Source of the DNA: Euhalothece natronophila Z-M001
GTDB taxonomy: Bacteria; Cyanobacteriota; Cyanobacteriia; Cyanobacteriales; Rubidibacteraceae
Assembly: GCF_007904085.1 (NCBI RefSeq)
Contig: NZ_CP042326.1
Location: 620,001-684,000 of the forward strand
DNA: 64,000 nt
Direction of reading: 5' to 3'
This document shows positions 9,010 to 58,223 of the stretch, piece after piece. The notes beneath the pieces were generated by a model that saw only the letters and a program-made list of their open reading frames with translations, did not search any database and was not told the DNA's origin. Position 1 is the first letter of the stretch, and the number at the start of each line of letters is the position of its first letter. A program made the translations under genes and the position numbers.

Positions 9010-9116
9010 TATAGTCGTTCCAATTCAGTTCCGTAGTGCAGCCATCTTGGCTGCTACTAGGGAGCAAGATGCTCCCACTACTTTTAGGTTGCTGTTTTTT
9101 ATTTGGAATCACTATA
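9010..9116 (+). mobile_element. 107-base MITE, copy 1
   Basis: Near-identical copies lie at 12691 and, inverted, at 58224. The ends are imperfect terminal inverted repeats (TATAGTCGTTCCAA against TATAGTGATTCCAA, 12 of 14 matching) that start and end in TA, as expected for a Tc1/IS630-type target. The centre holds two adjacent perfect hairpins, GCAGCC-atctt-GGCTGC and GGGAGC-aagat-GCTCCC, framed by GTAGT/ACTAC; the two loops are exact reverse complements. It has no coding capacity. This copy has removed or displaced the N-terminus of the PIN toxin gene to its right. Confidence 0.85.
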
Positions 9117-9502
9117 TCAGCGCATTCATTGGAGTGACTGGACCCAGTCGGGAACTGATCCGAGGTTGTTTGCAAGGTAGTTATCAACCCTTAATGGGGA
9201 ATGCTCTATTTTTGGAGTATGAATCGGTGATTGAACGAAAAGAAATTCAAGCCAATTGTCCACTTTCTGAGTCTGAGAGCAAGGCGTTGCTGGAAGCCTT
9301 TTTAAGTGTTTGTCAGTGGATTAATATCTACTATTTGTGGCGACCAAATCTGAGGGATCAAGCGGACAATCATTTAATTGAGCTTGCCGTAGCAGGGAAC
9401 GCGATCGCGATCGTAACTAATAATGTTAAAGATTTTCAGAAAACCGAATTACTCTTTCCCGAGTTATCAATCTTAAAACCAGAAGACATGATGAGGAGAT
9501 AA
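9047..9502 (+). pseudogene. PIN-domain toxin, N-terminus replaced by MITE sequence
   Basis: From about residue 23 onward the frame reads as a PIN-family toxin: YISAFIGVTGPSREL, then the LEYESV, ADNHLIELAV and TNNVKDF blocks that carry the later acidic residues. The first ~23 residues come from the 107-base MITE, so the essential first motif (an Asp in a DTNV-type context) is missing. Upstream of the MITE I find no matching 5' fragment in any frame, so that piece was probably deleted. PIN proteins are RNases; this one is likely inactive. It is followed 6 bases later by its antitoxin gene, which is also broken. Confidence 0.7.
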
Positions 9503-9508
9503 GTAAAA

Positions 9509-10088
9509 ATGGCAACTCTCACGATTCGCATCCCAGAGGAGAAACATGAACGTCTCAAAGCTTTAGCAGAAGGGCTGAGAATCCTACGACTACAACTCGC
9601 GCGTTCCTTTGCGCCGTACGACGGCGCAGGGTCACTCGTCAATTTTAATTTAGTCGGTAGACGGGGCGTATAAACATCTGGGGAGACCCCAGATGACAGC
9701 CCCTCATGAATCAGCCCAGTTGTGGTAAGATAAATAAAGTAGGCCTTATATTCAAGAGCTAATCGCCACCTACTAATTGATACAGAATTAATTTCTGAGA
9801 AACCTTCAACCGAGGGGCATCCGGGAGAAGTAAAATAAAGCTCCGACTCGTATCCGAACCGATAGGTGGAGTTGGTGAGAAGCCCCAACCACATCGAAAG
9901 ATTGGTTGGGGAGTATGTCACCCCAAAGTCGAGGAATCAGTGTTAATAAACTGATGGAAGAACTTTCAACGATTGCGCTAACTGAATTTGACGCTCATAC
10001 TCGTTTCCAAGCGATGGCATCCAGAGGTAATCCCGAACAAGGGCTGAAATTATTGGATAAACTTGATGCTCGTTCTGCAAGTCAGTGA
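9509..10088 (+). pseudogene. RHH antitoxin of the PIN pair, split by an IS200/IS605-type insertion
   Basis: The 5' part begins MATLTIRIPEEKHERLKALA, a ribbon-helix-helix start. It then runs into the 355-base insertion and stops after 54 codons at 9673. The matching 3' part resumes at 9924 with QSRGISVNKLMEEL and continues through DAHTRFQAMASRGNP to a TGA at 10088. Joining 9568 to 9924 restores one frame of about 75 codons, the usual size for such antitoxins. Toxin and antitoxin of this operon have been inactivated by unrelated elements, so no active toxin remains to be neutralised. Confidence 0.75.
9569..9923 (+). mobile_element. Non-autonomous IS200/IS605-type element with hairpin ends
   Basis: About 355 bases; boundaries are good to a few bases because they were found by restoring the split antitoxin frame. 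Near the left end is a perfect hairpin (GCGCCGT-acg-ACGGCGC at 9611-9627). Internally there is ATCTGGGG-aga-CCCCAGAT, and near the right end CCCCAACCA/TGGTTGGGG (9883-9911) followed by AGTATGTCAC. Subterminal hairpins, no inverted repeats, no target duplication and a GAAGCCC...GGG-AGT-CAC right end are the pattern of IS200/IS605 elements and their TnpB guide-RNA ends. No tnpA or tnpB is present. The left 114 bases recur at 57843. Confidence 0.65.
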
Positions 10089-40510: not shown

Positions 40511-41434
40511 ATGTTTTTCTTACCCTTGAGGCCCCGCCTATTAATCCTAATCTGTAGCTACTTTGTCCTTAGTTATGCCCCTAGCGCCTTCGCTTTATCA
40601 GAATGGGAATTTAATCCTGAAACTTCGCATTTACAGTTTACACTTGAAGACTCACTCACCCCAACTTATTTTTTCCTTGATGATCCCAAGCGCATTGTCA
40701 TTGATATTCCTAAAACGCAACTAGAAGGAGACTCAATTCAGCAAAATTACCAAGGGCTAATTCAAGAAATTCGCATTGGGCAATTTGAAGAAGAAACTGC
40801 TCGCATTGTTCTCGAACTCGCTCCAGATGCAACATTAGCCTCTGATGAGATTTCTTTAAATGCCACTGCTAAGGGGGAGGAGAAGCAATGGCAATTGAAC
40901 CCAACCCTTGAGAAAGTTGAATTTCCGCTTTCTACTCTTATGACAATCCCCTCTTTAGAAGAGAAAGCTGTGATTTCCTCTCAGCAAAAAGTACAAGTTC
41001 CCTCACCCCCCTCAGAACAAGCCAGAAGCTCTCAGGAGTCTTCTTCAGAATTGACATTACCAGCAGGAACCGAATTTCAAGTTCGTTATCGTGGCGAGAC
41101 CTCTTTAAAATTAGAAGTAGATCAACCTTGGCAAGAGGTACTATTTCTAGAAAGCGAGTTAACTAATGAGGAAGGCGAGTTAATTGCTTCCAACCAAACC
41201 CCAGTCATTGGAAAATTTGAAACCACATCTGAGGGAACTCGATTTGTTACTCAAGCCCTGATTACAACAGTTGAGCCGACAGCAACTAGAGAACTTAACA
41301 CGGTAATTCCACTAAAAGCACATTCCTCCTTGATTAACAATCCAGAATCCAAATCAAGCTCGAACCAGATCACTATTTGTCCTGATACGCTATTGACATT
41401 AGAATTGAGAGAAGACTGGAATTATCAAAGATGA
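40511..41434 (+). CDS. AMIN-domain exported protein
   Basis: A 307-residue protein with a signal peptide (LRPRLLILICSYFVLSYAPSAFA) and an N-terminal AMIN-like domain (LQFTLEDSLTPTYFFLDDPKRIVIDI, IRIGQFEEETARIVLEL). AMIN domains target amidases and secretin-type proteins to the cell wall, so peptidoglycan binding is likely. The C-terminal part is of unknown fold. Its stop overlaps the ATG of the cyclase gene (ATGA), implying coupled expression of a wall-associated protein with a cAMP-type signalling enzyme. Confidence 0.75.
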   Translation: MFFLPLRPRLLILICSYFVLSYAPSAFALSEWEFNPETSHLQFTLEDSLTPTYFFLDDPKRIVIDIPKTQLEGDSIQQNYQGLIQEIRIGQFEEETARIVLELAPDATLASDEISLNATAKGEEKQWQLNPTLEKVEFPLSTLMTIPSLEEKAVISSQQKVQVPSPPSEQARSSQESSSELTLPAGTEFQVRYRGETSLKLEVDQPWQEVLFLESELTNEEGELIASNQTPVIGKFETTSEGTRFVTQALITTVEPTATRELNTVIPLKAHSSLINNPESKSSSNQITICPDTLLTLELREDWNYQR

Positions 41435-53963: not shown

Positions 53964-54058
53964 AATTACCGAAAAGACTCAGACTGAACTTTGCTTTTGA
54001 TTTTAACCAACAGATACTCACGGCTAAGGCTCAGTTAACGTTAGGCAAGCCCAAGTCG

Positions 54059-54106
54059 CTGAGAAGCCCCAACTACATCGCAAGATTAGTTTGGGAGTAT
54101 GTCGCA
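54059..54106 (+). mobile_element. Solitary IS200/IS605-type right end
   Basis: GAGAAGCCCCAACTA ... TAGTTTGGGAGTATGTCGC matches the right end of the element at 9569 at about 37 of 44 positions, including the stem (one mismatch) and the AGTATGTC tail. No left end or transposase is visible nearby, so this is a fragment. Confidence 0.6.
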
Positions 54107-57842: not shown

Positions 57843-57956
57843 TTTAGCAGAAGGGCTGAGAATCCTACGACTACAACTCGCGCGTTCCTTTGCGCCGTAC
57901 GACGGCGCAGGGTCACTCGTCAATTTTAATTTAGTCGGTAGACGGGGCGTATAAAC
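57843..57956 (+). mobile_element. IS200/IS605-type left end, second copy
   Basis: These 114 bases appear identical to 9562-9675, including the GCGCCGT-acg-ACGGCGC hairpin, and then diverge at ATAAAC. The matching right end is not present. Both copies follow TTTAGCA, which is therefore a candidate target motif. In this copy TTTAGCA belongs to the dispersed ~90-base repeat, whose continuation is missing. Confidence 0.65.
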
Positions 57957-58223
57957 CTCCGACCCAACTTGAACTTTAACTTAGTTAAAGTAGCTTTTTT
58001 GACCAACGGTCAGAGAAGGCGCCTGCTCTGACTTTTAAAACATCTTCTTAAACATAGCTTACCCCTAAGTAACCCTCTACCCTTGAAAATTAAGAGGGGA
58101 CTTAGGAGGGACGGAGATCTAAAAGACCATCAACGCTCTGCTCCTACCATTAATCAAGTTACTATTGGTTTTTTGTTGTAGTAATTATTTGAATTGTAAG
58201 GGAAATCAACTAAATTAGCAACT

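Follow-up and report, generated by a model that had tools for sequence, protein, structure and literature searches.

A transposase-free IS200/IS605 derivative in a cyanobacterial antitoxin gene and its possible role as a stand-alone TnpB guide-RNA gene

An antitoxin gene of Euhalothece natronophila Z-M001 is split by a short segment with hairpins near both ends, which raises the question of what this segment is and whether it might supply a guide RNA to TnpB proteins encoded elsewhere in the 3.52-Mb genome. The window analyzed here is the whole 64,000-nucleotide stretch that contains the locus. Joining position 9566 directly to 9922 gives GCTTTAG followed by CCCAAAGTCGAGG and yields an uninterrupted antitoxin reading frame of 74 codons that reads ...KALAQSRGISVNK..., where the uninterrupted homologues of relatives have KALAKSRG or KALAQSRG. 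The restored frame also matches the layout of the uninterrupted homologues at L114, L115, L119, and L127. The element so defined is 355 bp long, lies directly 3′ of a conserved TTTAG, and ends in GTATGTCAC. The original prediction gave the same length but placed the element at 9569–9923; this placement preserves the same antitoxin frame but disagrees with where the other copies end, at GTCAC before variable bases, and comparison of the copies gives 9567–9921 instead (Table 1). That the bases following the right end are antitoxin codons, as had been proposed, is borne out by the sequence and by the reconstructed empty site.

To judge from the copies found elsewhere, the element is real and not a chance arrangement, and the initial observation is confirmed. 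A full copy with 99% identity lies at C1:3151399 of the same genome, which holds seven TnpB-less copies in all, the window copy and L002, L003, L004, L005, L006, and L008 (82–99% identity over the matched parts), together with several solo left-end pieces. Diverged TnpB-less copies are present in three congeneric genomes (G002, G003, and G004), and some copies of the family are truncated or interrupted. The occurrence of copies at other places in the genome and in congeners indicates a mobile family rather than a one-off deletion, and we regard it as practically certain that the element is a mobile IS200/IS605 derivative. It contains neither tnpA nor tnpB, being too short for either, and no TnpA or TnpB match overlaps it. 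As had been anticipated, it has hairpins near both ends (the left one being CGACTA...TAGTCG), no terminal inverted repeats, and no target duplication. It is inserted 3′ of the fixed short motif TTTAG, the empty site being exact. The bases 5′ of TTTAG are unconserved across left ends, and the element then opens with CAG, CAT, or CAA; because the left-end search pattern demanded TTTAGC, the independent evidence for the motif is only this non-conservation upstream. A classical MITE was rejected, as terminal inverted repeats and a target-site duplication are both absent. Its sequence marks it as related to the TnpB-carrying IS200/IS605 (IS1341-group) elements, without a transposase gene and with both hairpin ends retained, and its near-terminal hairpins and ends homologous to those of tnpB elements make it similar to the PATEs, the palindrome-associated transposable elements of Haloquadratum walsbyi (PMC3119063).

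Table 1. Features of the interrupted antitoxin locus (window coordinates)
Feature	Position	Strand	Evidence or remark
Interrupted antitoxin gene, 5′ part	9509–9566	+	ORF and homologues
TTTAG target motif (candidate TAM), outside the element	9562–9566	+	precedes every left end found
Whole element (non-autonomous IS200/IS605-type)	9567–9921	+	copies with differing flanks; empty-site reconstruction; empty homologues
Left end CAGAAGGGCTGAGAATCC, then hairpin CGACTA...TAGTCG with nested insertion in loop	9567–9661	+	homology to tnpB-element left ends
Nested 47-bp palindromic insertion in left-end hairpin loop	9596–9642	+	missing from L004, L005, L006, L008
Nested 45-bp palindromic insertion beside left-end hairpin, GGGGC..ATCTGGGG-CCCCAGAT..GCCCC	9662–9706	+	missing from L006, L051
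Extended -10 promoter-like box TGG TAAGAT	9723–9731	+	aligned 5′ of the helix in cross-genus copies; mostly TATAAT
RNA 5′ domain, helix GUAGG/CCUAC around AAGAGCUAAUCGCCACC	9739–9773	+	conserved across genera; UA to CG compensatory change
Scaffold hairpin CCGAGGGGCAUCCGG	9810–9824	+	CG to GC double changes, Halothece versus Moorena copies
Core scaffold stem GCUC...GAGAAGC, inner hairpin ACC-GAUA-GGU	9840–9882	+	strong covariation, stand-alone and tnpB-borne
Right-end hairpin CCCCAACC...GGTTGGGG	9883–9911	+	most pairs show compensatory changes
Right-end terminus AGTATGTCAC, guide directly 3′	9912–9921	+	(nearly) invariant in aligned copies
Candidate guide, antitoxin codons CCCAAAGTCGAGGAATCAGT	9922–9941	+	empty-site reconstruction; guide role inferred from TnpB biology
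Interrupted antitoxin gene, 3′ part	9922–10088	+	ORF and homologues

The left end, which is homologous to those of the tnpB elements L063, L079, L081, L083, and L086, is enlarged by two nested palindromic insertions that the original prediction had overlooked. L006 is without both, and L004, L005, and L008 are each without one. The placement of the 47-bp insertion is ambiguous by 2–3 bp; a second copy of it lies at 57879–57919 of the window, inside a solitary left end belonging to this element family (57843–57959). The 45-bp repeat recurs, inverted, at the right-end hairpin of the tnpB elements L074, L083, and L086. Repeats of this type sit at corresponding positions of the two IS200/IS605 ends, with the orientation reversed at the right end, and were seen at the right-end hairpin of L074, L075–L077, L083, L086, and L034. 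In Haloquadratum, the SMR-A repeats are likewise described as inserting into the palindromes near the ends of PATEs and IS605 elements (PMC3119063). Upstream of the antitoxin gene, a repeat of about 107 bp with inverted termini (TATAGTCGTTCC...GGAATCACTATA, 9010–9116), which also flanks L010, L012, L018, and L019, lies at the 5′ end of a PIN-type toxin-like ORF (9047–9502); with this repeat in one gene and the element in the other, both genes of the toxin-antitoxin pair appear interrupted. Elsewhere in the window, ARAGORN called a tRNA-Pyl at 40902–40993 on the minus strand, which is unexpected in a cyanobacterium and probably false.

The original prediction held that the element would depend on a TnpB encoded elsewhere and suggested a genome search for a full element with the same ends. 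The genome has about 50 TnpB matches as against one intact TnpA gene (G000:C1:286601), the right end of whose element differs (ATGTCAA). A search for full elements found L075–L077, L079, L081, L083, and L086, which share the left end and have a homologous right end. The matching tnpB subgroup (L075–L077, L079–L081, L083, and L086) has in common with the element the left end TTTAGCA..GAGAATCC-hairpin-ATGAATC, wherever a left end was found, and the right-end scaffold, which in these elements overlaps the 3′ coding end of tnpB (…SSKAQSRTEAQAGAAEKP…). The genome has at least eight tnpB genes of this subgroup that encode the RuvC and zinc-finger motifs, and the prediction of a TnpB elsewhere is thus borne out; their products retain GID(L/M)G, IAHEKLN, the CxxC zinc finger, and DRDxNA. 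The Moorena tnpB elements L135 and L138 end in the identical GGAGTATGTCAC, and their scaffold is almost the same. The proposal that the right end corresponds to the 3′ part of a TnpB guide RNA is supported by its match to the tnpB 3′ scaffold in both sequence and covarying structure, and a single model (R2) detects the stand-alone and the tnpB-borne forms. As in an omegaRNA, the 3′ end of the RNA coincides with the end of the element and is followed by external bases that, in the empty site, adjoin the candidate TAM. In this genome, the matching tnpB genes have GTAATTCAC at their ends instead of GTATGTCAC, and pairing of the window RNA with their TnpBs is for this reason only plausible.

The right side of the element carries a conserved RNA gene of about 190 nt, in which a -10 box, a dedicated 5′ hairpin domain, the TnpB guide-RNA scaffold, and the right-end hairpin follow one another; the first two parts had escaped the original prediction. 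Stand-alone copies have TATAAT, TATACT, or TACAAT as the box, where the window copy has TAAGAT, and its distance to the 5′ helix is near-constant at 7–11 nt. The 5′ domain is kept in loci of the Halothece group, Moorena, Nostocaceae, Calothrix, and Okeania, with the consensus AAGAGCUAAYCGCCACC enclosed by GUAGG...CCUAC and a variable linker 3′ of the helix. Within the scaffold, the CCGAGGGGCAUCCGG hairpin is found also in the tnpB coding end of L135 and L138, and the core stem has the consensus GCUYRNC...GNYRAGAAGC with its inner hairpin, after which come the right-end hairpin and GUAUGUCAC. The core stem of the window copy is altered (GCTCCGACTCG versus GCTCATCGAG).

Alignment of the copies argues that this structure has been under selection. 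In the mixed alignment of 13 tnpB-borne and stand-alone scaffolds, 94.6% of cells are paired, with double changes in 13 of 20 pairs, as compared with 26–47% paired in slid controls. The alignment of 28 stand-alone copies gave 95.2% of cells paired and double changes at 15 of 27 pairs, its slid controls reaching 37–52%. None of 500 shuffles attained the covariation score of either alignment, a statistic that is inflated by relatedness, and we therefore give more weight to the slid controls and to the double changes between genera. Compensatory changes in the helices span Halothece, Moorena, and Nostocaceae copies, and the window RNA alone folds better than its shuffles (z of -2.98). The suggested search with known covariance models was negative: no Rfam family was matched at the gathering score in the whole window, and the related loci gave only chance-level matches at E values of up to 1. 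The covariation shows that the structure was under selection at some point, a signal that may in part be a legacy of tnpB ancestors, and we consider it very likely that the element family is an expressed RNA gene.

We wondered whether the element might instead be a passive PATE or MITE, an internally deleted IS200/IS605 element moved by TnpA in trans, whose scaffold is kept as transposition DNA and has no function as RNA. PATEs of this kind have been described in Haloquadratum (PMC3119063), transposition needs the terminal hairpins as DNA, and several of the copies are truncated or carry nested insertions. Yet the conservation and compensatory changes go far outside the terminal hairpin and take in the core stem, the GGGGCAUCC hairpin, and the 5′ domain; this last domain is absent from the tnpB elements examined, the -10 box is retained across genera, and a scaffold variant that is TnpB-less still retains the pairing of the core stem. 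We judge a purely passive element to be unlikely. The absence of the 5′ domain from the tnpB elements examined, together with its own covariation, also led us to drop the idea that the middle of the RNA is leftover tnpB coding sequence.

The distribution of the RNA was followed with the 5′ domain. Model R1, run over 390 genomes with nine candidates scored per genome, missed most carriers, and a DNA pattern was more effective. The exact 5′-domain pattern matched 78 stretches of the species-level genome collection, nearly all of them in Moorena and the remainder in Okeania, Nostocaceae/Calothrix, and Halothece-group records, apart from a few chance matches. Each genome of the genus Moorena has 9 to 30 pattern matches. 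Exact matches in Treponema, Pseudoalteromonas, and Marinimicrobium were set aside as chance because the promoter-box spacing or the right end is missing, and two-mismatch matches outside Moorena, Okeania, Nostocaceae/Calothrix, and the Halothece group were mostly chance-like according to control counts. The pattern had no match in viral contigs.

Both forms were counted in two genomes, and there the stand-alone copies are as numerous as the scaffold-matched tnpB genes or more so. Among the scaffold matches retrieved from Moorena bouillonii, those with a recognizable right end comprise 9 in tnpB, 17 scored as stand-alone with the 5′ domain, and 8 scored as stand-alone without it; of these 8, five are visibly altered or interrupted forms of this RNA, whereas the other three are mis-anchored and have no scaffold. 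The totals are thus about 20–25 stand-alone versus 9 tnpB-borne, rows without a recognized end being other right-end types that are excluded from the count. For the present genome, model R2 gave 7 full stand-alone copies versus 5 tnpB-borne scaffolds, or 7 versus 8 when three tnpB genes (L075–L077) whose right ends are interrupted by the nested repeat are added. Among the genomes checked, tnpB with a matching scaffold co-occurs with stand-alone copies in G000, G002, G003, G004, G048, and G507.

Two kinds of divergent copies bear on what the RNA may do. A second scaffold variant, TTAACGTTGGTnnGCCCAAGTCGCTGAGAAGC, keeps the pairing of the core stem and was found in seven instances from six congeneric genomes; it was seen only in TnpB-less copies, with tnpB never immediately upstream (7/7). 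A right-end scaffold fragment of this TnpB-less type, without the 5′ part, lies at 54012–54105 of the window. In the Okeania copies (L280 and L281), the box and the 5′ domain are conserved and the 3′ scaffold has strongly diverged, as if the 5′ domain had a role of its own. An independent small RNA, regulatory or acting as a decoy that titrates TnpB or TnpA and sharing the scaffold incidentally, would fit the separate 5′ domain, the promoter-like box, the TnpB-less scaffold variant, and the Okeania copies, but we hold it to be quite improbable because in the copies examined the 3′ end always coincides with the right end of the element and is followed by unrelated host sequence, an arrangement required of a guide RNA but not of a regulatory one.

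The reading that we favor, and consider probable, is that the element represents a mobile omegaRNA gene with its own promoter, one that employs TnpB already resident in the cell and moves by means of TnpA, both acting in trans; a role as TnpB guide in trans seems equally probable for the family as a whole. The Y1 transposase TnpA, supplied in trans, would move the element as single strands, and RNA polymerase would start just 5′ of the 5′ hairpin and continue through the right end, so that the downstream host bases could become the guide. TnpB from other elements would load the stand-alone RNA and cut empty copies of the site flanked by TTTAG, and this cutting could cause the element to be copied back and retained. 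We infer the guide role of the downstream bases and the retention through TnpB cutting from the known biology of TnpB (PMC10278001 and PMC8612924). In the case of the window copy, the candidate guide CCCAAAGTCGAGGAATC immediately follows TTTAG in the empty antitoxin gene and would direct TnpB to the uninterrupted antitoxin allele. That this particular copy is still active is somewhat doubtful, its chances being lowered by the altered -10 box (TAAGAT) and core stem. On balance, we lean toward the wider proposal that, in several cyanobacterial genera, resident TnpB nucleases are parasitized in trans by mobile guide-RNA genes that stand alone, bear a promoter, and have a dedicated 5′ domain, protein-free elements that would home and persist by means of borrowed RNA-guided cutting.

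Several known systems resemble parts of this arrangement. PATEs, like the element, are short and transposase-free, without terminal inverted repeats or target duplication, and have near-terminal palindromes in common with IS605-type transposons that are often invaded by small mobile repeats; in one of them, HqIRS71, some of the 3′ coding region of tnpB survives (PMC3119063). In the sections of that report drawn on here, PATEs are described as fused ends or degenerate remnants, and a promoter, a dedicated 5′ RNA domain, and a covarying guide-RNA structure are unreported; unlike PATEs as so described, the element carries an RNA gene conserved across several cyanobacterial genera. The omegaRNA or reRNA of IS200/IS605 TnpB also has a 3′ scaffold that overlaps or equals the right end; the guide comes directly after it, and the left end has a TAM (Nety et al. 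2023, PMC10278001; Karvelis et al. 2021, PMC8612924). In those systems, the RNA is either a processing product of the tnpB mRNA of its own element or is situated at the 3′ end of that mRNA (PMC10278001; PMC8612924), whereas the present element lacks tnpB and its RNA has a separate promoter-like box and 5′ domain. The haloarchaeal sotRNAs (Rfam RF02656 and RF02657), non-coding RNAs that overlap the tnpB 3′ end (cited in PMC12558985), lie within tnpB, and our element sequences match neither family. PATEs and TnpB guide RNAs are thus already known, and a search of the open-access literature turned up no description of a TnpB guide-RNA lineage that stands alone and bears a promoter, a lineage that on this basis appears to be new. 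Guide RNAs encoded apart from their nuclease are known for IscB, whose omegaRNA (HEARO) has copies without an iscB gene, although there both the nuclease and the RNA family are different.

Cas12 descends from TnpB, and CRISPR required guide RNAs that were uncoupled from the nuclease gene. If our reading is correct, a TnpB guide-RNA lineage with its own promoter, often outnumbering the matching nuclease genes, would represent such an uncoupling outside CRISPR. It would also offer ready-made trans guides for TnpB tools and would account for the persistence of protein-free IS200/IS605 derivatives.
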